A stretch of 64,000 bases of DNA, taken from a bacterium (GTDB taxonomy: Bacteria > Bacteroidota > Ignavibacteria > Kapaibacteriales > UBA7675). The DNA is taken from positions 62,001-126,000 of the forward strand of contig JAUIKM010000013.1 of NCBI GenBank assembly GCA_030430495.1, given 5' to 3'. The translations under genes and the position numbers were made by a program. Positions 3,001 through 59,450 of the stretch are shown one piece after another. A model generated the notes under the pieces. The model saw nothing but the letters and a program-made list of their open reading frames with translations. It made no database searches and was not told the DNA's origin. Position 1 is the stretch's first letter, and the number at the start of each line of letters is the position of its first letter.

Positions 3001-6000
3001 TTGAGGAAAAGCCCGACAATTTTTTCGGTGACCGCGGGCCGGCGATTGGCCACGGGCATGCCGATCGTCACATCGTCCGCGGCGCTCAACCGCGCCAGCA
3101 GAATGGCCCAGACCGCACTGAGCAGCATATTGCTCGTCATGCCGCGATCGGCGCACAGTTGTTTAATCGCAGCCGCAGCGTGCGCATCGATGCGGCTGTT
3201 AAAGACCGCGCCGCGGTGTGAAGCCTGCGCCGGCCGCGAGCGATCCGTCGGCAGATCCAGCGCCTCCGGCGCGTCGGCCAGCGCCGTGCGCCAGTAGTCC
3301 AGCTGGGCGTCGTCGCGCCCGCGCTCCGCTTCCTCGCGCTGCCAGGCGGCGTAGTCGGCATAGGAAATGTTAACAGTTGCGGGCGCTGCGCCGCGCAACA
3401 GAGAGCGTAACTCTTCAGCCAGAATCGACATCGTCCAGCCGTCGGCCACGATGTGATGCAGCGTCAGAAACAGAATTTTGTCGTCCGCGGCCAACTCCAG
3501 CAGGCGCGCGCGGATTGGAATTTCCTGCGCCAGCGTGAAATTGCGCTCCACCTCGCTCTGCGCTTCGGCGTGCAACTGCTCTTCAAGCGTCGTGCTTTCA
3601 TCGCGTTTAACCTGCTCCACCCGCAATGCGGCATCCTGGAGCGGAATCTGCACGGCGCTGCCGTCGATGGACGGAAAGATGCTGCGCAATTGTTCATGTC
3701 TTTGCACCAGGGCGTTGAGCGCGCCTTCCAGCGCGCTCGTCTTCAGTGCGCCGCGCAGGCGCAGCATCATCGGCATCAGGTAGACGCGACCGCCGCCCTC
3801 GAGCTGATCGAGGAACCAGAGTCGTTCCTGCGCGAAGGACAGACGGCGCTGTGCGGGGTGTTCGCGCGTGTTTAAGTCGCGGCCGGCGGGCGCGGTGTTT
3901 CCTTCCCGCGCGAGCGTGTCAAGAGCGGCGGCGTAGTCCGCCAGCACGGGCTGTTTAAAGACGAGTTCGACCGGCGGCTCAAAGCCGAGTTCCTCGCGCA
4001 GACGGGCGCCGGCGCGCAGCGCCAGGAGTGAATGCCCGCCGCGGCTGAAGAAATTGTCGTGACGACCGACGGGCCGGTCGTTCAACAGCTGACTCCAGAC
4101 GCGCGCCACGAGAACTTCGCGGCTGGTTTGCGGCGCGATGAATTCAGACTCGGCGGTTAACAAAATAAGGCTGTTTAAGCGGGCCGCGTCGACCTTGCCG
4201 TTGGGCGTCAACGGAACGTCGTCCAGTATGGTCAAAGTTGCCGGTTGCAGATAGTGCGGCAAATGCGCCTGCGCATACGCCTGAAGCTGGGCGCGGTCGG
4301 GCCGCTCCGGCCCCTGGTCCACGATGCAAAAGGCGTTTAACTGCATGCCGCCGGACGCCGCCGTAGCCGTCACGTATGCGCGTGCGACCTGCGGATGACG
4401 CATGAGCGCCGCAGCGGTTTCGCCCGGTTCAACGCGCACGCCGCGAATCTTAACCTGATTGTCGACGCGGCCGATAAATTCAAAACGACCGTCGCGACGA
4501 CGGCGCACCAGGTCCCCCGTGCGGTACATGCGCTCGCCGGGCTCGGAACACCACGGGTCGGGCACAAACGCGGCCGCGGTGCCGGCGGGATTGTTAACAT
4601 AGGCGATCGCCGTCATCGGTCCCGCCAGGCAGAGCTCGCCCGGAACACCCGGAAGCTGCCGCCGGCCCTGACCGTCGAGCACATAAGCGCGCACATAGTC
4701 AAACGGCGCGCCAATTGTGATCGCCCCGTCGTCGACAAGATCCTGAGTGACAACTATCGTCGTTTCCGTCGGCCCGTAACCATTGTGCAGTCGCACGCCC
4801 GGAAATTGTCGGCGGTGTTGTTTAACAACGTCCGGCGTCAACTGGTCGCCGCCGACAACGATGTCGCTTAATGACTCCGCCGCAGCGCCGCCGAGCAGAC
4901 CGCTTTCGAGCAAGGCGGCATATGGCGCAAGAGCAGCGTTCAGATGATGCGGGTGGAAAAATGTGAAGTCGTCCTGCACGGACGCCCTGTCGACGTGCGC
5001 CGCATCGCTTAAACAGACGGCGGCGCACTTCAGAAATGCGCCCAGCGACACCTGCAGCGAAGCGTCAAAAGCAGGTGCGACATAACTGAGCAGGCGCGCG
5101 CCCGTTTTGACCTTAGTGATGTCCACGAAGGTGTGCAGCGTCCGCGCCAGCGAATCGTACGACACCAACACGCCCTTGGGAATGCCGCTGGAGCCGGAAG
5201 TAAACAGGCAATACGCCGCCGCTCCGGGTAGATGTTTAGTCCCGGGATTGTGATCCGGCATTGCATCCAGCTCGGCGCGGACAGCCGCAATGTTTAACCA
5301 GGTAGCTGCGCCGTTCATTCTGTCACTATCGGCCTCGCGATCAGCGATAAGCAGTGCGGGGCGGCATTCGCGCCGCATCAGGTCGAGTCGGGACGCCGGG
5401 CTGCGCGGATCGGCGGGGATAAACACAGCGCCAATTTTTAGCGTCGCAATCAGAAGCGCCAGGTAGTCGACGTGTTTGTCGAGCAAGAGCATCACGCCGT
5501 CGCCGCGTTTAACGCCATGCGCCGTCAGCAGATGCGCCCAACGGTTGGCGTGGCTGTTGAACTCGCGGTAGCTGAAGTTGCGCGCGCGACTCATCACCGC
5601 AATCGCCGCCGGACTGGTCCGCGCAAATTCCTCGAGTTTGCCGTGGGGCAGCGCCGGCGGATCCGCAGCCGCGCCGGACGCGCAAGCCTCCTGTACTTGT
5701 CTGTCCGCCGCGCTGCTGATATCGGCTTCGGCCAGCGAGCCGCCATAGTTTGCCGCTATCAGTTCAACAATGATCTCGTAGCGCAGGCGCAGTGCTTCGA
5801 TCTCTTCCGCTGCAAAGATGTCGCGGTCGTAATCGAGCGCGCCGTGCAGTTCGGGTCCTGAATCACCTTCCAGCTCGGCAAAACTCAGCTCCAGTTCGTG
5901 TTTAACCGTCGGTGCGGCCAGCTCCACAAAATCCGTTTTCATACCGGGCAGATGCAGTTCCGGCGCGGGTGTGTTTTGCAGAACAAAGGAGGACTGGGCC

Positions 6001-9000: not shown

Positions 9001-10226
9001 AGTCGTGTACTGTCGTACACCCAGCGAATGTTTAACTCGGCGCCGGGAATGACAATGATTGTCAGCGCAAAATTGGTCCGCTCAAATCCGTCGACGTTTT
9101 CGACGCGCAGACGGCGGTCCGAATTCGCCGCATTCAGATTTGGATAGTTTTCGAACACCAACACGTGGTCAAACAGGTCCGCCGCGCGCCCCAGTCCGGC
9201 CGCCGCCGAAATACCGCTGAGCGGCGTCTGGCTGAACTCATCTTTATCGGCGTGATCTGACGCCAGTTGCCGCAGCAGGGCCGCGGCATCCGCGAAGCGA
9301 TCGGTGCGGCAGCGCACCGGCAGCGTGTTGATTAACAGTCCGACCATCCGCTCCACGCCGTCCAGCGCGGCGGGTCGGCCGGAAACGGTCGCACCAAACA
9401 CCACGTCGGCTGTACCGGACTCGGCGGCCAGAACCAGCGCCCAGGCGGCCTGCGCAATAGTATTGAGCGTGACGTTCAGCTCGCGGGCAACATTCTGTGC
9501 GGCCTGCGTCAGGTCCGCTCCGAGACCGGTGCGCACTTCCCGCGAGACCTCGCGCAATACCGCGCCGCTGCGTTTATGATCAGAGCGAAGAGTCGTCGCT
9601 TCGTCAAAATCCTGCAGGTAGTCGCGCCAGAAGTTCTCCGCGGCTACGGGATCGCGCTGTTTAACATATTCAACAAATCGTTTGAAGGGCGGCGGCGGTG
9701 CGGCGTCATGCACCGAGTTGTTAACACGGGCGTCATACGCGGCCATCAGATCGGACAGCACGGCGGCCATCGACCAGCCGTCCAGAATGATATGATGAAA
9801 ACTCCAGACAAAGCGATAGTGCTCGTCGCCCAGGCGCATCAGCGCAAAACGCATCAGCGGTGCGCGGCCGAGGTTGAAACCCGTGGCGCGGTCGGCCGTC
9901 AGAAATTCGGCAAAGTCGCGCTCGACAAGTTCGGGTGTATGCTCGCGCCAGTCCAGCTCACGCCAGGGCAGCTCGGCCTGCTGAAAAACCACCTGCATCG
10001 GCGCATCGAGATTTTCCCAGTAGAAGGCGGTGCGCAGGACGGCGTGCCGCGCCATGGTGTCCGCCCAGGCCTGTTTAAGTGCGCCGACGTCCAGCGCGCC
10101 CAGCATATCGCCGCGCATCTGCTCAAAATACACTTCAACGCCCGTGGCATAGACACTGTGAAACAGCATGCCTTCCTGCATCGGCGCGGGCGGATAGATG
10201 TCAATGATTTGTGGTTGGTTGCTCAC
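1..10226 (-). CDS. NRPS, modules C-A-PCP / C-A-PCP / C-A-PCP-E (3' end beyond window)
   Basis: Multimodular non-ribosomal peptide synthetase, cut at the left edge. It has no stop in the window. I chose the GTG at 10226: it lies 5 bases after the previous stop, and GGGAG lies about 12 bases upstream. Reading the minus strand gives three C-A-PCP modules, then the start of an epimerization (E) domain. The first C carries HHIILDGWS and an N-terminal PMQEGMLFH signature, as in C domains that accept a D-residue donor; the next two look like LCL domains (RLWFIE, RLWFLDQL). Carrier serines fall near residues 1007, 2065 and 3108. Specificity residues aligned by hand to GrsA read DVHFHAQVC (unassigned), DAQFVGGIV (unassigned) and DVWHVSLID (the serine signature). 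The E domain at the left edge has HHFVIDGVSW, so D-Ser is expected. The D-accepting first C fits the E domain ending the upstream protein. No thioesterase is seen. Confidence 0.95.
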   Translation of the reverse strand, partial: MSNQPQIIDIYPPAPMQEGMLFHSVYATGVEVYFEQMRGDMLGALDVGALKQAWADTMARHAVLRTAFYWENLDAPMQVVFQQAELPWRELDWREHTPELVERDFAEFLTADRATGFNLGRAPLMRFALMRLGDEHYRFVWSFHHIILDGWSMAAVLSDLMAAYDARVNNSVHDAAPPPPFKRFVEYVKQRDPVAAENFWRDYLQDFDEATTLRSDHKRSGAVLREVSREVRTGLGADLTQAAQNVARELNVTLNTIAQAAWALVLAAESGTADVVFGATVSGRPAALDGVERMVGLLINTLPVRCRTDRFADAAALLRQLASDHADKDEFSQTPLSGISAAAGLGRAADLFDHVLVFENYPNLNAANSDRRLRVENVDGFERTNFALTIIVIPGAELNIRWVYDSTRLDAATVRRLAMLFEQVLRQLVQNPRRPLARMPLLDAAALRSVRTLTRGPIKQGEGTLVDLLEKACRDYADQTAIFDRDSGEELTYRELWEGGAQLALALQRRGVGRGDVVGLHVKRSAWSALALTAILRAGAAYLALDPVYPADRREFMARDADLVLLISDDPRDGACAGLSCVGPAELQRDAAKLDPARFAAPPPDTADAAYLMYTSGSTGRPKGVILAHRPLFNLIRWQVDDAAFGAGLRTTQMSSYSFDVSFHELFGAWVSGGEVHVVNEDVKRDPHLLLRLLAEAGIQRLFMPYVGLRSLAVYAADNGLTPTELREVHTAGEQLVADADLRNWIESVGARLRNQYGPTESHVCTDFCLPANVKHWNDLPAIGRPIDNSECYVLDALLRPLPVGFVGELYIAGACLARGYHRRSVQTAERFVPNPFGRAGERMYRSGDLARWTADGNLEYVGRADSQVKLRGYRVEPAEIEQVLSGHEAVRQAAVLVHGSGIHAALIAFVAVEGAASDTELRAFLARRLPEYMLPARYVRVESLPLTPSGKINRRELNRLALESADEASTGAPARTPTEELILDVWRKLLDKPGLGVHDDFFIAGGHSLLATRLTARLRPIFQRDIPVRLVFEHPTVARFCTAISDLDRGETDSAIPRRDSSTVLQLSPAQMRLWFIEMLQGPSAQYNLPAAIKLSGPLDTTALRGALEHIVARHSVLRTRIKNIDGAPVPEAAPAGEFALEYRSLEVEQFNNPDELRRVATDFAWRPFNLATDLPIRALLLRASADQHLLVLSIHHIAFDGWSQSVMVRELNDFYTRLAAGEPPLSDSLPLDYADVSAWLNSDAGRANVKRDLDFWQGVFSDLPPPLQLPSDAVRPERRSYHGASQRLQFGTQLTAALRACAREQHSSIFMLLAAAWAWLLARHGGREDIVVATPVANRRRAEFEDLIGFFVNTLPLRFRVKQTDSLPTFLQQVRDVVLEAFNHQDAPFDMLVEAVQPRRELGAMPLAQSSFVLQNTPAPELHLPGMKTDFVELAAPTVKHELELSFAELEGDSGPELHGALDYDRDIFAAEEIEALRLRYEIIVELIAANYGGSLAEADISSAADRQVQEACASGAAADPPALPHGKLEEFARTSPAAIAVMSRARNFSYREFNSHANRWAHLLTAHGVKRGDGVMLLLDKHVDYLALLIATLKIGAVFIPADPRSPASRLDLMRRECRPALLIADREADSDRMNGAATWLNIAAVRAELDAMPDHNPGTKHLPGAAAYCLFTSGSSGIPKGVLVSYDSLARTLHTFVDITKVKTGARLLSYVAPAFDASLQVSLGAFLKCAAVCLSDAAHVDRASVQDDFTFFHPHHLNAALAPYAALLESGLLGGAAAESLSDIVVGGDQLTPDVVKQHRRQFPGVRLHNGYGPTETTIVVTQDLVDDGAITIGAPFDYVRAYVLDGQGRRQLPGVPGELCLAGPMTAIAYVNNPAGTAAAFVPDPWCSEPGERMYRTGDLVRRRRDGRFEFIGRVDNQVKIRGVRVEPGETAAALMRHPQVARAYVTATAASGGMQLNAFCIVDQGPERPDRAQLQAYAQAHLPHYLQPATLTILDDVPLTPNGKVDAARLNSLILLTAESEFIAPQTSREVLVARVWSQLLNDRPVGRHDNFFSRGGHSLLALRAGARLREELGFEPPVELVFKQPVLADYAAALDTLAREGNTAPAGRDLNTREHPAQRRLSFAQERLWFLDQLEGGGRVYLMPMMLRLRGALKTSALEGALNALVQRHEQLRSIFPSIDGSAVQIPLQDAALRVEQVKRDESTTLEEQLHAEAQSEVERNFTLAQEIPIRARLLELAADDKILFLTLHHIVADGWTMSILAEELRSLLRGAAPATVNISYADYAAWQREEAERGRDDAQLDYWRTALADAPEALDLPTDRSRPAQASHRGAVFNSRIDAHAAAAIKQLCADRGMTSNMLLSAVWAILLARLSAADDVTIGMPVANRRPAVTEKIVGLFLNTIVLRLRMRPMEALGDILDQVRRVTIEALENQDVPFERVVEAVSPSRSLSRTPLFQVMFVMHNMPGGELQHEGLAVETIPMPPGGARFDLTLACREDEDEITCSIEYALDLFRAESIERMATMFNNIVRDLPRNLAVPLSALPLDAGDHAVVEQPPVPAARFRAGVHAAFEARVQRDGDKAAIRFEGKTFRYAQVNAYANAVARALRELGAGPEKVVGVSAERSPELIGAIFGILKTGAAFLPLEPSLPAERLSGMLADAGAALVLCDAAGFQVLSSLDCTLIPLEAISPDAFDSTPFGTPPLSRDSAAYVIFTSGSTGRPKGAVNTHGALWNRLAWMENYLDIGPLDRILHKTPISFDVSVWELLLPLCTGSLQVIARPEGQRDALYLAELMRAEAVSVVHFVPPMLRAFLNAVDAAQLTRLRHIVCSGEALPADLVELCHAKCGAELYNLYGPTEAAIDVSAWRAAAGAQDRSVPIGHAIDGVELLVLDAFMQPLPAGAPGELYIGGAAPARCYAGRAGQTAAAFVPHPRASGRRLYRSGDIVRLRADGAIEFIGRRDHQIKLRGFRIELGEIEQQSRKLHWVRNCVAVVRRRAVHLFVETEDGRRSAEAAELLRDHLRGVLPEYMLPAEIAMLAALPLTSNGKIDRRALPQIKQRDEETPYVAPRTKHEAVLAEIQAAVLGRERVGIHDNFFALGGDSILSIQILARAREAGIHLSVRDMFERQTVAELALLAGRGGIVQAEQGRVTGTAPPTPIQHWLLQRKLEFPSHFNQSLMFSVPVDFDAARARRIVNILLDHHDALRTRFVQREGIWSQVWPEGDANNVIWAEKQILSADPRMQNERLEEFCAGLQASFNIEEGPLFAAAYVKLAGSSPGRLFLAAHHFVIDGVSWRILLEDFTRLYRMSGGPGAAALPSKSTAYRDWAQVQQRWADSAELDAALDYWRASVSVPAARLPLRAGVDPANDYNRDSAELNLVVVDELSAAILDAAAGLRGCT

Positions 10227-10231
10227 GCCGT

Positions 10232-13200
10232 TTAATCTCCCTTCACAGCCCGGCTTACCTGATCCAGGAGCGCCGCCATGTTTGTGGCGTCGAGCCCCGA
10301 ATCCGCGAACTGCGGGATTTCTTTTTCAGGCGCACCTGGTCGCGCGCCGGAGACCTGCTGCGTTTGAGGCGCAACAATCGATTTCGCCAGATCGTCCAGC
10401 ACCCGGATCATATCATCAAGCAGTTTCGCGCTTGTCGACGAATCCAGCAAGACGTCGTCCCAGGCAAGGCCGATTTTTAACGTGCCGTTTTCCACCCAGG
10501 CATTACAGGTTAAACAATGCGTCGGCCGGACATTGGACGGGCGGTCGTCGCCGCCGGATTCCGCGGCAGTTTCCCACCTGTCGTTGCGCAAAGCGGCGTC
10601 GAGTTCCCCCAGGTAGTTAAACGCTATTTCAGGCTGATCCACCGCCGTCAGTTCCGGGTAACGCTGCGGCGCCAGATAACGCGCGGCCGCAAAGGGCAAG
10701 CCGTCATGCGGAACGCGGTTGCGTTCTTCAACCACCTGTTTAAGTGTGTCCTGCGCATCGGCCCCGGCCGGCAGCAACAAAGGATACACCGCGGTAAACC
10801 AGCCGACAGCGCGCGCCAGATCGGGTGCATCGTCAAAAGCGGCGGACACGGCGCTGCGGCCGTGATGTTCCAGTTCAATTACAAATGCGCCGCTCTCAAC
10901 TCGGCGGCGCAGCGCCACCGACAATGCAGTCAGAAGATAATTTTCCGGCGATTCATTGCCGCGCAACAAAGCGCCTGTTGTTTCCGCCGCGGCGGTTTTA
11001 ACGTCGCTGCGGATGCGACCTTCACCTTTGTTGTGTTTAAGCTCGCCCTTGCGTCGCGGCAGTCGCGCCGAGATCGTCCCGCTCAGATTGCGCCAGTATT
11101 GCAAGCGGGCGCTGAACTCCGGGTCTTCGGTCCATTGCCGCAGCCGGTACGCATGCAGCCGCGCACCAAACTCAACGGGCAGTGTGGTTTCCACCTCCAT
11201 GTTAAGTGCGGCATCCAGTTCGTCGAGCAGAATGCGGATCGACACCACGTCAAGCAACAGATGGTGACCAATAAGGAAGAGGCGCTGCGATCCGTCACGC
11301 AGGCTTAACAGATGTACGCCGAACAGCGGTCCTGCGCCCGGTTCAAACGCGCGTTGCAACGTGGAACAATAGGCCGTCACATCGCGCGCCGAATCAAGCT
11401 CGACGGCGCTGAAGAAATCGACGGAGTGCGGCATCTCGCTGATTTCCACGTCCTGACCGTCAATGTCGTACACGGTCCGCACTATCGGGTGCGCCGCCGC
11501 AAGCTGTTTAACCGCCTCGCGCAGGTGCCGCGGATCCAGCGCCCGTTTAAGTCTCAGCAGAATCGAAAGGTTAAAATGCCGCGGTTGCTCAGGCTTGCGC
11601 GCGGCAAACCAGGCCTGGGCGGGCAGCGGCCGCAGCGGCACATTCATCGCGACATGTTCATTCGGAACAGCGTCCCGCCGGATCAACCCGGCCAGTTTTG
11701 CGGCCTGCGGCACGTTAAACACGTCGCGCAATTTCAGATGCATGCCTTCGTTCGCGGCGCGCGCCACCAACTGGATTGCGGAGATGGAATTGCCGCCCAT
11801 TTCAAAAAAACCGTCGGAAGCCTGCATCTGCGGCGCGTCCAGCAGCTTGCGCATGATTGCCAGCAGCCTTTCCACAACAGCCATCTTGTTAACCTTCGAG
11901 CCGGAAGACTCCGCGTCGCCGGCCCGCCCCGCAACCTCGCGCTCCGGGTCGGCAGTCGGCAGCAGATCCGCCAGCCGCGAGCGGTCAATCTTGCCGTTGA
12001 GGTTCAGCGGCAGAAGTTCGACGCGTTGCAGCAGATCCGGCAGCATGTAGCTCGGCAGCGCTGCGGCCAGGTTTCGGCGGATCCGGGCTTCGCTGTCCTC
12101 CGCACCTTCGTACAGCGCACAGAGGCGGTCGCCGTGGACAAAAACGACAGCGCGGCGCACTTCTGAATCCTGGTACATGCGCGCTTCAATCTCGCCCGGT
12201 TCAATCCGGAAACCACGCAGTTTAACCTGCGAATCGGCGCGGCCGACAAAGTCCAGCAGGCCGTCGCGGCGGCGGCGCACCAGGTCGCCGGTGCGGTAGA
12301 GTCGCTCGCCCGGGCGTCCGTACGGATTCGGTACAAAACGGGCCGCCGTCAGAGCGCCGCTGTGCACGTACCCGTGCGCCAGGCCTTCCCCGCCCACGTA
12401 CAACTCGCCCAGCGCACCGGGCGGCGCCAGGCGCATGTCGCCGTCTAACGCCAACGCCGTGCTCCTGTCGATGGCGCGACCGATCGGCACGCCGGCCGCA
12501 TTGACCGGAAAGTCGGCTGTAATTTCATACAAGGTCGAAAAGGTCGTGTTTTCGGTCGGCCCGTAACCGTTGAACAGTCGCAGTTCCGGGCAGGCCTGTC
12601 TGACGCGTAGCACATGCGAGGTCGACAGCGCTTCGCCGCCAACCAGCAGTGTGTCGAGATGCGCAAACATGGCGGGCCGTTCTTCGGCCAGGACGTTAAA
12701 CAGACTGCTGGTCAACCACAGATGTGTGATGTTGCCGTTTTGCAGGCAGTCCGCCAGCACTTCGGGGTCGATAAACTCATCCTCAAACACCTGCACCGCC
12801 GCGCCGTTCAGCAGCGCCGCCCAGACTTCAAACGTAGAGGCGTCAAAGGCCGGAGACGAAAGCGCGAGCGTCGCGGCGCCCGGATGACGCAGCGAAGCAA
12901 AACCGGAGTGTCCGGCAAGGCGAACGACGGCGCGCTGCGGTACTTCCACGCCCTTCGGCCTGCCGGTCGAACCGGACGTAAACATGATATATGCGGTGGC
13001 CGCGGGCGGGCTGTCAAACGCCGGCACGGGCTCCGGACTCAAATCGTTGAGAAGTGTATCTACTTCCAGCGCATGGCACTCGGGCGGCAGCCAGGCCGGG
13101 CGCTCGCGGCACACGAGGAAACGCGAAGCCGCCGTGGAGAGCATTGTTTCGCGACGCGACGGCGGCGACTGAGGATCAAGCGGCAGTGCGACGGCGCCGA

Positions 13201-16200
13201 TGCGCATGCAGGCCGGCATGACGGCGATATTCAGCGGCGAGCGCGGCAGGTCAATCGCCACAACATCGGCGGGACGCACGCCCCAGCGCCACAACCAGGC
13301 CGAGATATCCTCCGCCTGACGGCGCAGATATTCATATGTCCAGTTGACGCTTTTGCCGCGCAGGGCCGTCGCATTCGGCCGTTCATCGCAGCGACGATTA
13401 AACAACGCGTAGACGGACTCTTCCACCGGCGGCGGCGAGGCTTCGGACCGACTCGACGACTCCGCTGTTTCAGGTTCGCTGGTTAACAAAGGAAAAACCT
13501 GCTCAGCCCGTCCGGGCGCAAGCAGCTCAGTCAGCGTCGCGCGCAACAAGTCCTGAAATTCCGTCACGCGCTCCGCGCTTAACAGCGACGCGTCGTATAG
13601 CCAGGAACAATGCAGTTCGCCGCTCTGGCGCACCACGAGAGTCAGCGGGAAATTGGTGCGTTCACGCGCGCGCGCATCGCGAATAAACATGCCGCCGAAG
13701 TCGGACCGCAGCTGATCGTCGAGCGGATAATTTTCAAAAACGAGAATCGAGTTAAACAATCCGTCGCGCACGTTCACTTCCGCAAGGCGAATAATGTCGG
13801 GCAGAGACATCCAGGCGTGCTGTTCGCGTTGCGCCATGCGGTCGCGCGCCTGCTGCAGAACAGCATCGGAATTGTCAAACGTCGAAAGGTCAAAGCGCGC
13901 CGGCACGGTGTTGATAAACATGCCGACCATTTCCGCCATGCCGGGAACCTGCGGCGGACGCCCCGAAACCGTAACGCCGAAAACGACGTCGTCGACGCCC
14001 GCCGTCATGCCCAACACACGCGCCCAGGCCACCTGCACCAAAGTGTTAAGCGTCACGCGGCGCAGGCGCGCGGCCGAACGCAAAGCGGTGCTGAGTTCGG
14101 CCCCCAGCGCAAAGTCGAGCTCGCGGTCGTCGCGTCCTGAGTTGTTCACACGAACGCGGTCAAAGCCGAGGTCAACAGCCTGCGTGAAAGCGCGCAATTC
14201 CTCGCGCCAGAATTCTTCGGCCGGGACGGGGTCGTTGCTGTTTAACCAGAGTGCGTAGTCGCGCAGTGTGGGCGCAAGTCGCAGGCGCGCCTGCCCCTGT
14301 GTCCGTTCCGCCGCGTACAGCTCCAGCACCTCGCCCACGATCAATGGCAGCGACCAACCATCGACGATGGCGTGATGATGCACCCAGAACAACCGCCATT
14401 CCGTCGGCCCGGTGCGGTAGAGAAACAGCCGGCTGAGCGGCGCGCAATGCATGTCGAAACCCCGCCGCGTCTCGCTGCCGTGCAGGGAGTTAAACAGCAT
14501 TTCCTGCTGACGCTCGTTCAGCCCGGATACGTCGCGCAATTCAAATGGCAGGCGGACATGCGCCTGCACGGCCTGCAGCAAGCCGTGGCCGGCGGACACG
14601 ACAAAAGCTGCACGCAGACTGTCGTGGCGGTTAAACACCGCGTTCCAGGCGCGTTCAAGCGCCGCCGCATCACAGTCGCCGCTTAAACGGATTTCAAAGA
14701 CCTGTGTGTAGAGCCGGTTGTCCCTGCCGTCGAGCATGGCGTACATGAGCATACCGGCCTGCAACGGCGCGGAAGGCAGAATGTCGGCGATCGACGGGTA
14801 GTGACCGCCATGCGATTCGATCTCGGCCGCAATATTATCCAGCTCGTCCTGTTGCAGGGTCAGCGCGGTAAAATCCGACGGCGTGTAACGACCGTGCGGA
14901 GCGTTTGCACAGTGTTCGATTAAACGGCGCAATTCGTCCAGCGTGCGCTCCAGCAGCGCCTGCATGGAATGTTCGTCGTGAAGCAGCGGACAATAGGCCA
15001 GGTACAGTTGCAGCACGTCGCCGGCGGAGCGGTCTATGCCGGCGTTGATCTCGAGCAGCCAGGGACGGCGGTTTTCAGCTGCGCGCACGCGCCCGGGCTC
15101 AATCAGACTTAAACGCCAGTCGGGCGATTTAACATCCGGATTGTCGTCGCCGGACGCCTCTCCGTAGCGACCGAGGTAGTTAAACACGAGTTCCGGCCGG
15201 ACGGCGGGAGCAAGTCCGGCAACGGCGCTACAGGCCACGTTCAGCGCGCAGGACGCGCGCGAATTACGGCGCAGTTGTTCCTTGACCGAGATAATGATGT
15301 CGGCGGGATCATCGGAATACGGAAGTCCGATCAGCAGCGGCGCGATAGCCGTAAACCAACCGACGGTTCGCGACACATCGGGCATGCCGTAGGAATCCGG
15401 CGTTTCGCGGCCATGCGATTCGCGCGCCAGCAGCAGCCTGTCCTCGCCGGTCCAGGCGCGCAGAGCCAGAGCCAGCGCCGCGAGCAGGAATTCGTCGACG
15501 CGGGTTCGGTACTTTCCGGCGGCCACGTCCACAAGTTGAGTTGTTAAACCGGCGTCGAGCGTCACCTTTGCCAGGCGCTGGTTCGCTTCCGTGTTAACAG
15601 TTGTTTCATCGGCGTCGAAGTCGCGCGGCAGCGCCGACGATAGATTGTTCATTTCTCCGCATTCCGCATTCAGATCAACGCGCCCGGGAAGTTCCGCCAT
15701 GGCGCGCGCCCAGTCGCGGAACGACGTGGTTTTGGGCGGCATTTCGGGCGCTGCGCCGGAGCGGAGCGCCGCGTCGATGGCGCGCAGGTCTTCGACGATA
15801 ATGTTCCAGGACACCACGTCGACGACCATGTGGTGAATGCTGATCAGCAGGTAGTTGCGGCCGCCGCGGCAGTGCAGCAACAGGAGGCTCCAGACTGGGC
15901 CGGCATCCAGATCGAGTGCGGTATGCGCCGAGTCGGCATGGATTTCAAGCGCGGCGTCAATGTCCAGATCCGGGCAATCCACCGACCTGACCGCCAATTG
16001 CGCAGTGGATGCAAATTCCTGTTCGCCGGACCGCGTCAGGCGTGTACGCAGCGCATCGTGGTGTTCCTGCAGAATTCCTGCAATCGTTTCGATCCGCCGG
16101 ATGTCAATATCCGCCGGCGCTTCCAGAACCACCGCCTGATTCCAGTGTGCAGGCGCGGCAAACTCCTGCGCCATAAACCAGCGCTGCACGGGCGTCAGCG

Positions 16201-53870: not shown

Positions 53871-54380
53871 GCATTCTCCGGACTGTAAAATGGACCTCCC
53901 TTGACGAGCAACACCCATTTGGATTTGCACCGGGTTGTCAGGCCCGCGCCGCCGGGTGGACGCCAGGTCTCAAAGGCTCATGTTGAGCGCTAGTTATGCA
54001 ACCATTTGGTTGCGCATTTTAAGGTACGACGCCCGCGAACAGCGGCGTCAAACGACTGTGCGCCCGTGGCGGCAAAACACAAAACGGACCCGGAAGCCTC
54101 GCTCCCGCAACGCGGCGACCGGCAAGAGGCAAAAGCAAGCTGCAAATGCAGCGAAGCGCTCAAACAAGCAAGCTGTGAAACAGCGAAGCGATCAAGACGT
54201 CGGAAGTAAGTTGTTTGCTGCATTTCGAACAAATGTGTTTAAGTCCTGATCCGGTGTGTTAAACACAACAGGCCCGTGCAAAAACATATGCACAGGCCCG
54301 CACTGCGGATGAACAGATTTTTGTAGCGCGACCGAATTAACGGGCGCCGCGTTTAAGTCAAACGCAGGTAATCGGCAACG
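53871..54380. other. Intergenic region with stem-loops, upstream of the ABC gene
   Basis: 510 bases without a supported gene. Features seen: an inverted repeat GCAACC-ATTT-GGTTGC (53998-54013) followed by TTTT on the plus strand; two tandem stem-loop repeats (54133-54196); a palindrome GTGTTAAACAC (54261-54271); and a small hairpin GCGTTT-AAGTC-AAACGC (54349-54365) just after the stop of the secreted-protein gene. A plus-strand open frame over 53935-54249 is Arg/Lys-rich and is not believed. Confidence 0.5.
54133..54196. repeat. Two tandem stem-loop repeats with compensatory changes
   Basis: Two copies of about 31 bases share AAGCAAGCTG...CAGCGAAGCG.TCAA. The first can fold GCTGCA-AA-TGCAGC, the second GCTGT-GAA-ACAGC. 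The bases that differ keep both stems paired, which suggests selection for structure. Confidence 0.6.
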
Positions 54381-54878
54381 TTATTGCACGGTCAGAGTCA
54401 GGGTCGAACCCGCTTTGAGATACAGAAGCTTCGTACCGTTGTGGAAGTTAACGCGCTCGCGCAGCGTGTATTCATTGGTGCCGACCGGCCAGGCATCAAC
54501 AACGCCGTCCAGCGTCAGGTCCCTGTCGCGCTCATACGTTTCGCCGTCAACCGTCACATTGGACGGCAGCGAAATTTCAACGTCAAGCGAACCGCCGGTA
54601 TTCGGGGTAATCGTAACGTCGCCCGTCAGCGTGCCGGCGAGGCCGAGCGTGACGGTCGGAGTAAACGTGGCAAGCTGGCTGGTGATTTCAAAATCGCCCA
54701 GACCGCGCTCCTGGCACACCACATCACAGAAATAGCCGCCGGGCGTAAAAGGATCGCCGTTTTGTTTAAACAAAGGTGAACTGGACGATCCTGTACCCTG
54801 GGCGGCAAAGGCCGCAACAGCAACAAACACTACCGCAAATGTCGCGGCAACGGACGAGAACAGTTTAAAACGAGGCAT
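54381..54878 (-). CDS. Small secreted protein, paralogue 2
   Basis: 165 aa from ATG at 54878 (MPRFKLFSSV), with GGAG eight bases upstream; the frame opens earlier, at 54941, without support. The N-terminus is a classical signal peptide: basic start, hydrophobic core (VAATFAVVFVAVAAFAA), likely cut after AFAA. The mature part has a CDVVC motif, then a Thr/Gly-rich, probably beta-strand-rich region. The last 70 residues are shared with the next gene: DVEISLPSN, LDGVVDAWPVGTNEYTLR, and the C-terminal LTLTVQ. I do not recognise the family. A soluble periplasmic or extracellular protein is likely. It sits between the ABC exporter and the protease-nuclease gene; no function can be assigned. Confidence 0.85.
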   Translation of the reverse strand: MPRFKLFSSVAATFAVVFVAVAAFAAQGTGSSSSPLFKQNGDPFTPGGYFCDVVCQERGLGDFEITSQLATFTPTVTLGLAGTLTGDVTITPNTGGSLDVEISLPSNVTVDGETYERDRDLTLDGVVDAWPVGTNEYTLRERVNFHNGTKLLYLKAGSTLTLTVQ

Positions 54879-54920
54879 GAGATAACTCCAGTAATTACAG
54901 AGATAAAAAAGGAATGATGG

Positions 54921-54951
54921 ATTATCGCGGCAGGACAACAACGTGTGGCAA
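54921..54951 (-). promoter_or_regulatory. Possible sigma-70 promoter of the paralogue 2 gene
   Basis: On the minus strand TTGCCA is followed after 19 bases by GATAAT, about 45 bases before the ATG. The spacing is slightly long. No other promoter-like pair was clearer. Confidence 0.3.
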
Positions 54952-55007
54952 TGGCGGTGTCTGCATCGCCGCGCGCATAGCAGACGTTTAACAGCAGTTT
55001 AATACAA

Positions 55008-55083
55008 GCCGGCCGCATACGAACGTACGCTCCGCATTGCGGCCGGCGTTTAACTTCACATTTTAACATGCCGCAATGCGGCA
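55008..55083 (-). terminator. Two stacked hairpins after the paralogue 1 gene
   Basis: A small stem TGCCGC-AAT-GCGGCA (55069-55083) starts 13 bases after the stop. A perfect 10-base stem GCCGGCCGCA / TGCGGCCGGC (55008-55017 with 55038-55047) follows, then TTGTATT on the minus strand. The CCGCATTGCGG sequence occurs in both, in opposite orientation, so alternative pairing is possible. Terminator function is likely but no long T-run is present. Confidence 0.5.
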
Positions 55084-55095
55084 CATGTGAAATGT

Positions 55096-55584
55096 TTACT
55101 GCACAGTCAGGCTCAGTTTAGCGCCTGCGTCGATGTGCAGGGTTTCAACTCCGTCAGTGTATTCAACCGTGTTGCGCAGCGTGTATTCGTTGGTACCGAC
55201 GGGCCAGGAATCGACCTCGCCGTCCAGAATAACATCGCCCTGACGCTGGTAGTTAATACCGTCAATCTGCAGGTTGGAAGGCAGCGTGATTTCAACATCG
55301 TACGTACCGCCGCCGTTCTGCGTAAGATTAACACGACCGTCCAAACCGGCGGTCAGGCCAAGCTGGCCATTGTTCCAATGCAGATTTTGCGAGGTAATTC
55401 TCCAGACGAGCGGACCATCTTCAATGCAATCGACATAACACTGCGGCAGACCGTCAGTGCGCTGCTGGCCCAGTTCATCATAAACCTGAGCGGTGGAGTT
55501 GCCCACGCCATGGGCGGCAAAGAGGGTTCCAATAGTAACAACGGTACAGGCCAGAGCCATCAAGGCAAGTTTAATGCGTGACAT
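55096..55584 (-). CDS. Small secreted protein, paralogue 1
   Basis: 162 aa from ATG at 55584 (MSRIKLALMALACTVV), with AAGGGCG just upstream. A signal peptide is evident, cut probably after LFAA. The mature protein has CYVDC near its start, matching CDVVC of the neighbour, and ITSQ follows in both. The C-terminal 70 residues align closely with paralogue 2 (DVEITLPSN, LDGEVDSWPVGTNEYTLR, LSLTVQ), while the middle has diverged. It is a tandem duplicate of an unrecognised secreted family. The two conserved cysteines could form a disulfide or bind metal, but nothing else points to a function. Confidence 0.85.
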   Translation of the reverse strand: MSRIKLALMALACTVVTIGTLFAAHGVGNSTAQVYDELGQQRTDGLPQCYVDCIEDGPLVWRITSQNLHWNNGQLGLTAGLDGRVNLTQNGGGTYDVEITLPSNLQIDGINYQRQGDVILDGEVDSWPVGTNEYTLRNTVEYTDGVETLHIDAGAKLSLTVQ

Positions 55585-56077
55585 AATCAACGCCCTTAAT
55601 AAAGTGGTAAAGTGGAAAAAGTGTTAAGCGAACCGCTGTGGGGCCGGCCGGCTGCTTAACGTGGATAGAACTACATGGGAAAGTTTGAATGTTGCAGCGG
55701 TCAAATCACTTTTGACAATGAGACCGCGGTCAATGGTAGTTATTGAGGTTTCCGCCGGAGGGCGGCTACTTCACATTCAAACCGGGATGCGGACATCCGG
55801 CCGGACATGATCGTGTTACCGGCTGGTGCGCAGCATCAAAGTCAATGCTCGCGAGGCAATTAACATCAGTATTGGGAATGTTCATTATCGGTGATGGGCG
55901 TATGCCGATGTTGAACGCCGTCAATCAAGCAAAATTACTTCTCTCATGCAAGTTAAATTTTTGTAACCCGCCTATTTTTTACGTAAGGGTGAAAAAGAGA
56001 CAAATTTTTACACCAAAGCCGGATCGGAGTGTTTTAACATCCGACCCGGCTTTTGATTCTCTTCCCCGCCGCATGCC
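55585..56077. other. Intergenic region with a terminator
   Basis: 493 bases without a supported gene. The right end holds a strong terminator hairpin (56015-56054). A palindrome TCCGGCCGGA lies near 55796. The left end should contain the promoter of the paralogue 1 gene, but no clear -35/-10 was identified. Confidence 0.5.
56015..56054. terminator. Strong stem-loop terminator after the protease-nuclease gene
   Basis: AAAGCCGG-A-TCGGA pairs with TCCGA-C-CCGGCTTT across a 10-base loop, only 24 bases after the stop of the minus-strand gene. A-rich and T-rich flanks make it potentially bidirectional. Confidence 0.75.
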
Positions 56078-58933
56078 TCAGGACAGCCCGCGCTCAAATT
56101 TGATGCTCGCGGCCAGTTCGGGCAAGTCGATCAGCGGATTGCGGTTGCCCTGCACCTCGTAGATCGCCTTGTTGCGGTGTTTTTCGTAGCCGTCCACCGC
56201 ATACTTTTCATGCCAGTGCAACAGATTTTCGAGATCCCCGCTCGTGTAGTCCTTGATTTTACGGGGATAACGCAGCAGAAAATACAGCGTGGCGCGCGCC
56301 GCGGCGCCCTTGCCTGATTCCGGTTCAAAACGACCGCCGTCGCTCTTGCCGCATTCGACGCGCACGCCCTCGCTCCTGTCCGGATCGTAGTCCGCAAAGT
56401 CGATGTAGGGCGAGTTTGAGCGCGAGGAATTGCAACGCATTTCACAGGAAAACAGGTGATGCAGATCGCTCTTCATCGGGTTGGCCTTGCCGAACCAGGA
56501 CTGCGGCACCACGTGTTCGCAGTTGAACGGATTGTCCGACTCGATGGTCTCGAGAATGCCCCGGCGCTCGGCTTCGGTGTAGAGCGATTCGGCGTGAATG
56601 AAACGATTGATCGCTTCGTTGCGACGGCGCTCCGCTTCAAAGTCGCGGCGGATCACTTCGGCCGGATCCATTTCCGATCCGTCGTAAATACTTTTGAGTT
56701 TGCCGTTGGGCTGCAGGTCCACCCAGGCATACAGGTGGTTGTGGCGCGCCGTGGCGTAGGACAATTGGTTGACATGCGTGCGCGTCAGCAGACTGCTCAA
56801 ACGCTCAAACAGGTCGGCCGCCGTAAAGTCAATATCGGCATAGTAACGCGCCACGCTCTCCCTGTCGCCGTCCTCGTCGTAGTACTCCCTGCCGTCGATG
56901 ATAATTGCGGGTGCGCCGCCGTCCGTGCCCGCCGCACCGGAACCGCCACTTCCGCCGGCGTCCTTGTCCGTTGCCGTGTTGTCGACCTTGCCTCCGCCGC
57001 CGACAGTTACCGCGGCGCCGGTTTTGATCCCCAGCTTAACAAGCGCTTTGTGCAGCGCGTCGACCAATTGCGGCAGGTCGGCCGAGCAATCGCATTTTTT
57101 ATCCGGGCTCGACGATGTGCCGTCGGTGACGACCGCCTGCGTGTTGTACGTCAGGCGCATGACGAGCGGCACGTGATCCGAAACGTCGCGCACAAATCCG
57201 GACACGGACTTGTCGAGGCGAATAATCGCGGCATCGTCGTTGCTGATCTGCCCGAGCGCCGCGTCGGTGCTGACGATGATGTGATCGATGAGCGATCTGT
57301 ATCTGTCGCCCACGTATGAAATCACGTCGCCCTGCGCGTCGTCGGCCGTCAGAGTGAACAGATCGGGCGAATCCGTTAAGTCGCTCAACACCGAACCGTC
57401 GAGCTCCTGGTTGAAGTCGCCGCCAAGAATCACCGGGATCCCCTCCTTACCGCGCAGATCCTCGATGATGGCGGCCAGGATATTGGCCGAGAGCCTGCGG
57501 CGCTCGCGGCTGAGTTCGTCGCCGAAAGCCTTGAGGTGCACCACGATCATCAGGAACTCCGTGTCCCCGTCTTCTTCCCGAACCTTGCAGTGAGCAAAAA
57601 GCGGCTCACGCCCGCCGGCAAACGCCTGTTTTACAGTACCGTCGACGGTGACGGTCTGTTTAAGCACGCGGCTGTACTGTGCGTTGATGTCGCTGCGCAG
57701 GGTCACGGACGTCGTCTCCAGATCGTAGAGCACCGCCAGGTCCTGCGCGCCGGAGGCGTCCAGATGGACGTAATCCATGTTCTGACCGCGCAGCCTGAGC
57801 GCCTGTTTAAGTCGGTCGAGTCCGCCGCGTTCCACTTCGCTTAAACCCAGCACGTCCATCGAAAGCCCGGCGACGACGTCGGCCACCTTGTCCACGCGGG
57901 CGGCGGACACGCCGTCGTTAAAGTGTTCAATGTTCCAGAATCCGATATCGGCAAAACGGCGGTTGCCGGCCCACTGCGGCAGTTCTATTTCGGCGCCGGC
58001 GGAATCGCCCACCAGGCCGGACACGTCAAAGAAACCCAGATAAGGCGAAGTGTCCGTCACCGTGCGCAGGACCTTGCGCGCCGCGGCGGTCGCCTCATTG
58101 CGCGAATTGCTCATCGAAATCAGGTGGGCCACGATAGCGGAAATGCGAATGCCTTCATTCGTCGCCGTTTTGGTTTTTTCATCGGAATACCAACCGGCGT
58201 GGTGCAGCGCCACAAGTTCCCAGGCATTGTTAAACACGCCCGAACCGGACGAGCCCGGCTCCGTGTCCGTCTGGTAGTGCAACACCTTGTCGTAGACGTA
58301 GGTCACTTCATTGTTCTGCAGCGCGACTTCTTTCATTCGGCCGCGCGGATGTTGAATGATGTTAACCGCTTCTTTGCGCGTTATCGTGGCGGGATTGCGC
58401 AGCAGGCGCACCGGCACAACGTCGTCTATGCCGACCATGTCGCAGCCGACGATGCTGAAATCGAGTTCCTCATCGGTAATGAACAACAGGTCCGGCCGCA
58501 GTTTAACGGTCACGGTTTCGCGGTCCTCTTCGTAGAAAAACTCGGCCACGCTGCCGTCGGATTCGTCATAGTCCCCCAGCACGTGGTTGTTTGTCATCAG
58601 GTAGCCGTTGCCGATTAAAATGCCGGTGCCCCAGGAGGTCGCTGTTGAAATGCGGCACACGGCGCGCGAACGGTCCGCGCCTTTGTACAGAAAACTCACC
58701 GGCAGCAGGTCGTTGCCCTGGCTGATTTTTTCGTAGTGCTGTGCAATTTTTACTTCGGCCTCGCGGCGCGCCGCTTCGTCCGCTGTAATTCGGTCAATGT
58801 CAACTTCTTCACCGAGCAGGCTCATAGCCCGGCGTTTAACAAGGTTGTTGAACTCGGCCGGACTGAGTTTTTGTGCGCCGCCGCGACCCTGAGTTTCGTT
58901 AACCAGGGAATGGGCCTTTGTTTTAACAGGCAT
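56078..58933 (-). CDS. Trypsin-like protease fused to an EEP nuclease and an endonuclease I-type nuclease
   Basis: 951 aa. ATG at 58933 has AGGAG seven bases upstream. Three enzyme domains are fused. (1) A V8/trypsin-like serine protease, about 75-280: His117 in MTNNHVLG, Asp158 in ELDFSIVG, Ser229 in PGSSGSG. (2) An endonuclease/exonuclease/phosphatase (DNase I-like) domain, about 325-600: Asn333 (FWNIEHF), Glu366 (LSEVER), His466 (VVHLKA), Asp506/Asn508 (GGDFNQ), Asp550, and Asp586/His587 (SDHVPLV). (3) A beta-beta-alpha-metal nuclease of the endonuclease I type, about 680-935: His807 in EHVVPQSWF, then SDLHHLFSCEMRCNSSRSN. All catalytic residues appear intact. A Gly/Asp-rich linker (about 640-675) precedes the last domain. 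No signal peptide or membrane segment is seen, so cytoplasmic action or non-classical export is possible. The context (a natural-product cluster) does not explain it. A conflict or defence effector is the most attractive reading, but is inference. Confidence 0.93.
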   Translation of the reverse strand: MPVKTKAHSLVNETQGRGGAQKLSPAEFNNLVKRRAMSLLGEEVDIDRITADEAARREAEVKIAQHYEKISQGNDLLPVSFLYKGADRSRAVCRISTATSWGTGILIGNGYLMTNNHVLGDYDESDGSVAEFFYEEDRETVTVKLRPDLLFITDEELDFSIVGCDMVGIDDVVPVRLLRNPATITRKEAVNIIQHPRGRMKEVALQNNEVTYVYDKVLHYQTDTEPGSSGSGVFNNAWELVALHHAGWYSDEKTKTATNEGIRISAIVAHLISMSNSRNEATAAARKVLRTVTDTSPYLGFFDVSGLVGDSAGAEIELPQWAGNRRFADIGFWNIEHFNDGVSAARVDKVADVVAGLSMDVLGLSEVERGGLDRLKQALRLRGQNMDYVHLDASGAQDLAVLYDLETTSVTLRSDINAQYSRVLKQTVTVDGTVKQAFAGGREPLFAHCKVREEDGDTEFLMIVVHLKAFGDELSRERRRLSANILAAIIEDLRGKEGIPVILGGDFNQELDGSVLSDLTDSPDLFTLTADDAQGDVISYVGDRYRSLIDHIIVSTDAALGQISNDDAAIIRLDKSVSGFVRDVSDHVPLVMRLTYNTQAVVTDGTSSSPDKKCDCSADLPQLVDALHKALVKLGIKTGAAVTVGGGGKVDNTATDKDAGGSGGSGAAGTDGGAPAIIIDGREYYDEDGDRESVARYYADIDFTAADLFERLSSLLTRTHVNQLSYATARHNHLYAWVDLQPNGKLKSIYDGSEMDPAEVIRRDFEAERRRNEAINRFIHAESLYTEAERRGILETIESDNPFNCEHVVPQSWFGKANPMKSDLHHLFSCEMRCNSSRSNSPYIDFADYDPDRSEGVRVECGKSDGGRFEPESGKGAAARATLYFLLRYPRKIKDYTSGDLENLLHWHEKYAVDGYEKHRNKAIYEVQGNRNPLIDLPELAASIKFERGLS

Positions 58934-59450
58934 ATTTACTCCTGAAAACTGAAGTGTGGAATACGCGGCCCGTTTGCGCCGCGCCTATGGTACGTGGTAT
59001 GCGACCGGCACAGGCGTTTAACCGCCGCCCCGCCGTGTACGGGGCCTCAGCTGCGTCATCTGTGCATGTTCGCCATGGATAAACCGGGCATAAAACGGAA
59101 CGGGTGTTGTGGCATGTGAACAAGTTCCACCGTCCGTGCAATGCCGAAAACCCGCATACACCATTGCCTTCGAATCGCCTTTATCGGCATGTGATCGACG
59201 ATTCCGAGGGCCTGATCCCGACAGCCGACCGCGGCTGCTTTCGGGTGCATTGTTCTTTACGGCCCGAAATATAAGAATTTCGGGATTCCGTCAACATTAT
59301 CTGCATTCCCGTCGCAAAATTTTTCACGTCTGTTTACGATCCGCTCCGGGCGTTTAACCACCCGGGTGGAACGCAGACCGACCTGATCGCTTTGAGGCCT
59401 CCACCCTGCTTCGGCCTCAGGCTCCATGATTTTTTTGTTTGTCCCGCAGT
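58934..59450. other. Intergenic region upstream of the protease-nuclease gene
   Basis: 517 bases without a supported gene and with lower GC than the genes. It holds a palindrome CCACCCGGGTGG (59359-59370), a stem TGAGGCC...GGCCTCA (59393-59419) that may weakly terminate the KS/C gene, and a dispersed-element copy at its right edge. No promoter was called with confidence. Confidence 0.5.
59431..59449 (-). repeat. Dispersed short element, copy 4
   Basis: On the minus strand it reads CTGCGGGACAAACAAAAAA, directly after the stop codon of the KS/C gene. Confidence 0.55.

Follow-up and report, generated by a model that had tools for sequence, protein, structure and literature searches.

What might a bacterium do with a single polypeptide that joins a serine protease to two different nucleases? 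The question is raised by a 951-residue protein encoded in the window, by which we mean the whole 64,000-nt stretch analyzed here (contig JAUIKM010000013.1 of assembly GCA_030430495.1, positions 62,001 to 126,000 of the forward strand, from a bacterium of the Kapaibacteriales). An initial annotation had described the gene as an intact three-enzyme fusion, and Pfam searches together with a check of individual residues bear this out (Table 1). With a probability of about one half, and judging from sequence, we read the protein as a latent intracellular (cytoplasmic) effector of a modular protease–nuclease family, one that would use several enzymes to dismantle the cell and be deployed by proteolysis.

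All three domains score above the Pfam gathering thresholds, which excludes a chance match. Catalytic residues were chosen according to the known sites of each family, and were compared in an alignment (A1) of the window protein with 19 relatives selected from the 31 loci described below; the endonuclease I domain is represented there by the window protein and six relatives. All 20 rows share the protease triad, T224 and, just beyond the Trypsin_2 domain, H244, as well as EEP residues N334, E366, H466, D506, N508, D586 and H587. Likewise, E806/H807, H825/H826 and N835 of endonuclease I are identical in all seven rows that have the domain. Degenerate domains would have undercut the fusion as first described, and none was seen among the aligned relatives. 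Every catalytic residue originally named is confirmed except Asn333, which is actually N334.

Alignment places the protease with V8, Spl and exfoliative-type enzymes. T224 and H244 occupy positions in the V8 pocket that hold the acidic P1 residue, and because both are invariant, the alignment suggests that the protease cleaves after Glu/Asp. Judged from sequence and model, the resemblance to the glutamyl endopeptidases (V8, Spl; family S1) extends to the fold, the triad and the Thr/His pair. In the nuclease parts, the active-site set of EEP enzymes (N, E, H, D/N, D-H) is complete, and Endonuclease_1 carries the EH, HH and N motifs of EndA and Vvn.

The AlphaFold2 model of the protein has a mean confidence score (pLDDT) of 59.8, with the protease and most of the EEP domain well modelled. 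Foldseek searches with the model recovered EEP folds (Nocturnin, DNase I, TDP2 and PDE12 among the matches listed) and support both the protease and EEP folds. The endonuclease I part is modelled at low confidence, since the alignment has just seven rows there, and its predicted identity comes from Pfam and the motifs. Helices are predicted in the N-terminal region (residues 25–39, 46–51, 53–66 and 79–89); for the part ahead of residue 80, model confidence is low to moderate. The linker that precedes endonuclease I is a possible cleavage region.

A simple hydrophobicity screen found no signal peptide in the window protein. The same screen found no strongly hydrophobic N-terminus among 32 family proteins, the maximum score being 1.62, compared to 2.6 and 2.9 for two export-like controls. 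The stop-to-stop frame is 968 residues, and hence at most ∼17 residues could lie upstream of the chosen ATG. V8 and Spl are secreted single-domain enzymes and EndA and Vvn are exported; in contrast, the window protease is signal-less and fused, and the members of the present endonuclease I subgroup that were checked have no hydrophobic N-terminus, the subgroup being linked to a protease either in one chain or in one operon. A protease and nucleases retained in the cell would harm the producer's own protein and DNA. Given this, it follows that they must be latent or kept apart.

Is this combination of enzymes peculiar to one genome? Six peptide patterns, run against 84,980 species genomes, yielded 31 loci; such a scan detects close relatives only. 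Architectures were called with Pfam for seven of these and otherwise by length and the motifs EHVxPQSWF or GDSW. The order protease–EEP–endonuclease I recurs in 8/31 (L002–L009), in Clostridium, Paenibacillus, Sporosarcina and a 'Candidatus Kapaibacterium' metagenome-assembled genome (MAG); the last (L005) is the nearest relative and belongs to the same family as the window genome. A further, distant triple protein is encoded on a Mesorhizobium plasmid. The triple arrangement, unfamiliar when the gene was first annotated, is therefore present in other bacteria and not unique. In 15 of the 31, mostly from Rhodobacteraceae-type bacteria, a GDSL-type domain stands ahead of protease–EEP and endonuclease I is missing (in L018, as in L042 below, the GDSL match falls under the Pfam cut-off). 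The remaining eight have protease–EEP by itself, including two Nitrosopumilus MAGs. The contigs of the two Nitrosopumilus copies span only 5 and 14 kb, so binning error is possible, although the copies are well apart from the bacterial sequences (33–37% identity to the window protein).

In a tree of 35 cores (that is, protease–EEP regions), the window protein and L005 fall inside a nine-row endonuclease I clade with a Shimodaira–Hasegawa-like approximate likelihood ratio test (SH-aLRT) value of 100, and the Mesorhizobium copy falls outside it. The tree, which was made by a quick method and in which L033 and L069 were flagged as long branches, requires at least five partner changes. The core thus retains its catalytic residues while swapping partners: endonuclease I, GDSL or none. 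More distant proteins share the protease module. A trypsin module with a match to the core profile is joined to Endonuclease_NS in L038, L044, L071 and L072 (and, by annotation, in L084 and L085), and proteases with such a match are fused to an alpha/beta hydrolase in L073 and L075; L042 pairs a core-type protease with GDSL and has no EEP. An Endonuclease_NS-fusion trypsin module matches the core profile at 7.4e-74. Some matches of the plasmid Endonuclease_NS fusions span residues 11–315 of the window protein, past both ends of the Pfam domain, as in a P. polymyxa plasmid protein (E = 1e-34).

The fusions to Endonuclease_NS bring the window protein close to 'System 3', in which a trypsin-like protease and a NucA nuclease share one chain or operon and for which a conflict role has been predicted (PMC7159879). 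As set out in the main text of that report, an S8 subtilisin and peptidoglycan-attacking effectors sometimes accompany the pair, EAD1 occurs in a subset of members, and a protease cascade is predicted to deploy the nuclease (Kaur et al. 2020, eLife 9:e52696, PMC7159879). The same main text contains no mention of EEP, GDSL, lipase, exonuclease or amidase. In the literature searched, which held few subscription papers and no bioRxiv preprints, no EEP or endonuclease I is described in such a system.

Like System 3 proteins, the window protein has a trypsin-like peptidase with an intact triad, homologous to the Endonuclease_NS-fusion modules. Unlike them, it contains no Endonuclease_NS (Pfam, E up to 1), having EEP and Endonuclease_1 instead, and a Pfam search of the two small downstream genes likewise gave no match that could supply NucA in the operon. 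No EAD family was found in the protein (Pfam, which includes EAD models, E up to 1), and no S8 partner lies on the window's contig, whereas S8 genes adjoin several relatives. Because NucA and EAD1 are absent from it, we liken the protein to System 3 by analogy and stop short of counting it among the members. Its apparent fit with the System 3 design makes it less isolated than was first supposed. A second resemblance is to the PADLOC model RT-Protease_XI, the C-terminal part of which matches window residues 62–269 (E = 2.5e-9); the window protein has no reverse transcriptase, and the comparison was made via the model name and match range only.

Neighbours were counted at 22 of the 31 loci, leaving out L020 and eight near-copies (L007, L009, L011, L013, L014, L015, L017 and L030). 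Near genes were those at most two genes and less than 1.5 kb away, with genes below 100 aa or with partial codons dropped; in the resulting set (n = 53), a contig-edge open reading frame (ORF) of L024 was replaced by the L031 astacin gene, which the length filter had removed. The control was 120 genes drawn at random from 150 far genes, those above 900 aa having been set aside. Proteases make up 9/53 of the near genes (four S8, three astacin, two Trypsin_2) and at most 1/120 of the far genes (Fisher P = 1.1e-4). None of S8, astacin and Trypsin_2 has two or more members among the best 25 of 145 families in the far set. The sole far match by seed search (L022:3827-4399) requires L022's own S8 as seed and overlaps that S8, and is hence probably a piece of the same gene.

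Six of the nine neighbouring proteases lack a strongly hydrophobic N-terminus. In Roseovarius (L010) and Nitrosopumilus (L032), the subtilisins adjoining the core lack a hydrophobic N-terminus and belong to one family, matching each other at 3.6e-132, so that the S8–core pair appears to co-occur in two domains of life. Spacing is tight in several cases: S8 lies 15 bp upstream of the core gene on the same strand in L032 and 18 bp upstream in L002, and in L003 the core gene shares 4 nt with a metalloprotease gene. Beside the subtilisins without a hydrophobic N-terminus are small ORFs (82–131 aa) that, by eye, resemble stand-alone propeptide-type inhibitors (L010 6455-6850, with equivalents in L011, L013–L015, L017 and L030; L086 6528-6776).

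Similar neighbours are seen on plasmids. Matches were found in 100 plasmid records, and 17 regions were examined. A lytic gene (protease, amidase or similar) adjoins the match, or lies one small gene off, in eight of these; two regions are unannotated, one has an unannotated three-piece match, and six have no such gene beside the match. Six plasmid records match 80% or more of the length of the endonuclease I module, three of them with an intact stand-alone gene 44–51% identical to the window module. An annotated S8 gene lies directly upstream of all three, overlapping by 8 nt, overlapping by 1 nt, or separated by 13 nt. In Sinorhizobium and R. etli, a GDSL–amidase–M15 protein immediately precedes the core-type protein, and in Paracoccus an annotated amidase is directly ahead of it.

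The gene is accessory and patchily distributed wherever we looked. In its own phylum, core-profile matches occur in 14/296 genomes, all partial save the window's own, and a full core is present in 2/61 near genomes, the window's and that of L005. A search of the whole window genome gave a single match to the 951-residue protein. Counting the starting genome in each case, 3/25 genomes in the genus of L006 are positive, as are 3/200 in the family of L032 (two full-length) and 12/248 in the family of L010, where nine of the 12 matches cover the protease part only. This scarcity, and the absence of a signal peptide, argue against a common secreted nuclease with a housekeeping role. Origin from a phage was considered and rejected: 50,697 phage records gave two weak tblastn matches, to the endonuclease I part only. 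A scan of viral contigs with the six peptide patterns gave no relative.

Lytic partners that can be exchanged, proteases as neighbours and a patchy occurrence are all consistent with an effector that proteolysis would activate. We envisage a protein that would be kept inactive; its N-terminal region or its domain order might be responsible. A signal of damage or invasion would then lead to proteolytic activation. The acid-specific protease of the protein itself might do the cutting, or a separate protease, for which the subtilisin or astacin-type genes beside several relatives encode candidates. Released EEP and endonuclease I domains would destroy DNA while the protease destroys proteins; the cell would die, and the invader would be stopped or the cell contents recycled. 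Such action would resemble that of NucA–trypsin System 3, the part of NucA being taken by EEP and endonuclease I.

Several observations weigh against this proposal. Both activity and latency are predicted from the protein's sequence. Next to the window gene there is no second protease, no sensor and no EAD domain; the 10 S8 matches of its genome include none on the window's contig, and none of these 10 is matched by the Roseovarius and Nitrosopumilus subtilisins at 1e-5. L005 has no S8 or astacin neighbour. In L022 and L025 the neighbouring proteases have export-like N-termini, and that of L018 has a membrane-like segment; without L022 and L025 the count falls to 7/53 (P = 1.1e-3). One Peptidase_M90 gene is present in the far set, among the matches listed, and an L026 subtilisin of the same cluster, 2.3 kb from the core, is a far gene that lay outside the 120 sampled. 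One caveat to the counts of protease neighbours is that they are not independent of phylogeny. Finally, PADLOC showed no enrichment of defense genes beyond subtilase among the 53 near versus the 120 far neighbours (near genes: 'subtilase' 3/53, RT-Protease_XI 1/53). The suggestion of a protease-triggered defense effector, made at the outset, agrees with the System 3 design (as that design appears in the main text of PMC7159879); the auto-processed toxin suggested alongside it is a hypothetical alternative.

Could the enzymes instead be meant for other cells or for the surroundings? Delivery into competitors or hosts by a contractile injection system or another secretion system seems unlikely. 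A cargo of several hydrolases without a signal peptide would suit injection, and a gene for DUF4157, a marker of injection cargo, lies ∼2 kb from the core in L034 (a Streptomyces plasmid). However, Pfam identified no delivery leader domain in the window protein, and a phage-sheath search, which addresses sheath systems only, found none in the window genome and matches in 2/9 core-bearing genomes. Nor does a recognized immunity gene adjoin the window gene, whose two small neighbours have no Pfam match; the wider survey of neighbourhoods proposed initially turned up recurrent proteases and no recognizable immunity gene, though no search aimed at such genes was made. We also consider it improbable that the protein is a scavenging enzyme, freed by lysis or by an unrecognized export route and digesting DNA and protein as nutrients. 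The surroundings of the relatives do include hydrolases that act on protein, DNA, lipid and peptidoglycan, and in one case on starch; set against these are the patchy occurrence and the N-termini of the 32 proteins screened, which the L037 amidase resembles in not being strongly hydrophobic (simple screen).

Two further explanations concern DNA repair and the local gene cluster. The protease might digest proteins stuck on DNA and a TDP2-like EEP cut the tyrosyl–DNA bond, in repair or against relaxase-linked plasmid DNA. Both the FAM111A protease and TDP2 are among the 50 best solved folds in Foldseek, but the EEP matches listed are spread across the superfamily at 14–18% identity, and fusions to endonuclease I or GDSL and neighbours such as subtilisin and amidase are ill-suited to repair; we regard this role as highly unlikely. 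There is very little chance that the protein is a tailoring or self-protection factor of a nonribosomal peptide/polyketide synthetase (NRPS/PKS)-like cluster. The gene does lie between synthetase-like genes on the same strand. Yet among the 31 loci, whose flanks were compared over at most 8 kb and sometimes far less, a synthetase-cluster-like ORF occurs in L008 only (545 aa, adenylation-type, 2.7 kb away), and the flanks of L005 have none. The island between synthetase genes noted initially thus looks incidental.

A broader version of the cell-dismantling proposal is possible, though we hold it tentatively. The acid-specific protease core and its exchangeable enzymes, either fused to it or encoded next to it, might form a signal-less kit for programmed self-digestion, spread among prokaryotes at large, in bacteria and probably archaea. 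Its targets would span all the major cell polymers: DNA, through EEP, endonuclease I or NucA; lipids, through GDSL and alpha/beta hydrolase, along with neighbouring phospholipase D (PLD) and patatin; peptidoglycan, through amidase and M15; and protein, through subtilisin and astacin. Such a kit would be a counterpart of apoptotic execution, far broader than the NucA–trypsin system described so far. If the proposal is true, a predicted bacterial death system would widen from one nuclease to mix-and-match executioner enzymes and, having been reported mostly in alphaproteobacteria, would extend to several bacterial phyla and probably archaea. The window protein, encoded by one gene, would be a compact system in which to test how a protease activates nucleases, as its three active sites can be removed separately.

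Table 1. Features of the 951-residue protein and its gene (window coordinates)
Feature	Residues	Position	Strand	Basis or remark
951-aa protein (V8-like serine protease + EEP nuclease + endonuclease I)		56078..58933	minus	ATG-start ORF, Pfam
Ribosome-binding site AGGAG, 5 nt before ATG		58939..58943	minus	read directly from sequence
N-terminal region, family-conserved	1-101	58631..58933	minus	
Trypsin_2, triad H117/D158/S229	102-243	58205..58630	minus	Pfam, E 1.4e-19
EEP (DNase I-like)	333-587	57173..57937	minus	Pfam Exo_endo_phos, E 1.4e-10
Gly/Ser/Asp-rich linker	600-681	56891..57136	minus	low model confidence
Endonuclease I module	682-951	56081..56890	minus	Endonuclease_1 at 780-939, E 3.2e-30
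Terminator-like hairpin after stop codon		56015..56053	minus	arms 56015-56028/56040-56053

The gene was said to have its own ribosome site and terminator. The first can be read directly, and the second corresponds to a strong hairpin after the stop codon, in a stretch with a folding energy of −29.6 kcal/mol (z = −4.56). This hairpin was not listed by the stock terminator scan, because its 11-nt spacer exceeds the scan's loop limit of 8. A promoter scan upstream of the gene on the minus strand gave no match. The large flanking ORFs, on the same strand, are NRPS/PKS-like by eye only. G+C content (GC) of the gene is 0.57–0.61 in 1-kb windows, close to the 0.58–0.63 of the synthetase-like side, and so a recent insertion, judged by base composition, was rejected. 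Downstream (54000–56500), GC is lower (0.51–0.54). This lower-GC stretch encodes two small proteins on the minus strand (54381-54941, 186 aa; 55096-55590, 164 aa) that look alike by eye, have strongly hydrophobic N-terminal stretches and gave no family in a Pfam search.

A few observations on the relatives stand apart. On the R. etli plasmid (L083 4070-15341), a four-gene run encodes a GDSL–amidase–M15 fusion, a core-type trypsin, a trypsin–PLD protein and an annotated patatin/phospholipase. The trypsin–PLD protein was considered as a further fusion of the same module and rejected: no match of its trypsin to the core profile was found, and it is therefore counted as a neighbour only. The N-termini of three plasmid S8 proteases (L080 5967-6929, L081 5866-6861 and L037 601-1524) resemble LIPY/F, the latency motif of intracellular subtilisins. 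In L013, a 1195-aa DUF6603 protein (9940-13527) is encoded 190 bp downstream of the GDSL–protease–EEP gene. In L010, a RimK-like ATP-grasp gene (2763-3704) overlaps a gene for a 243-aa protein with no Pfam match (3701-4432), and this pair sits beyond the subtilisin in several Rhodobacteraceae.

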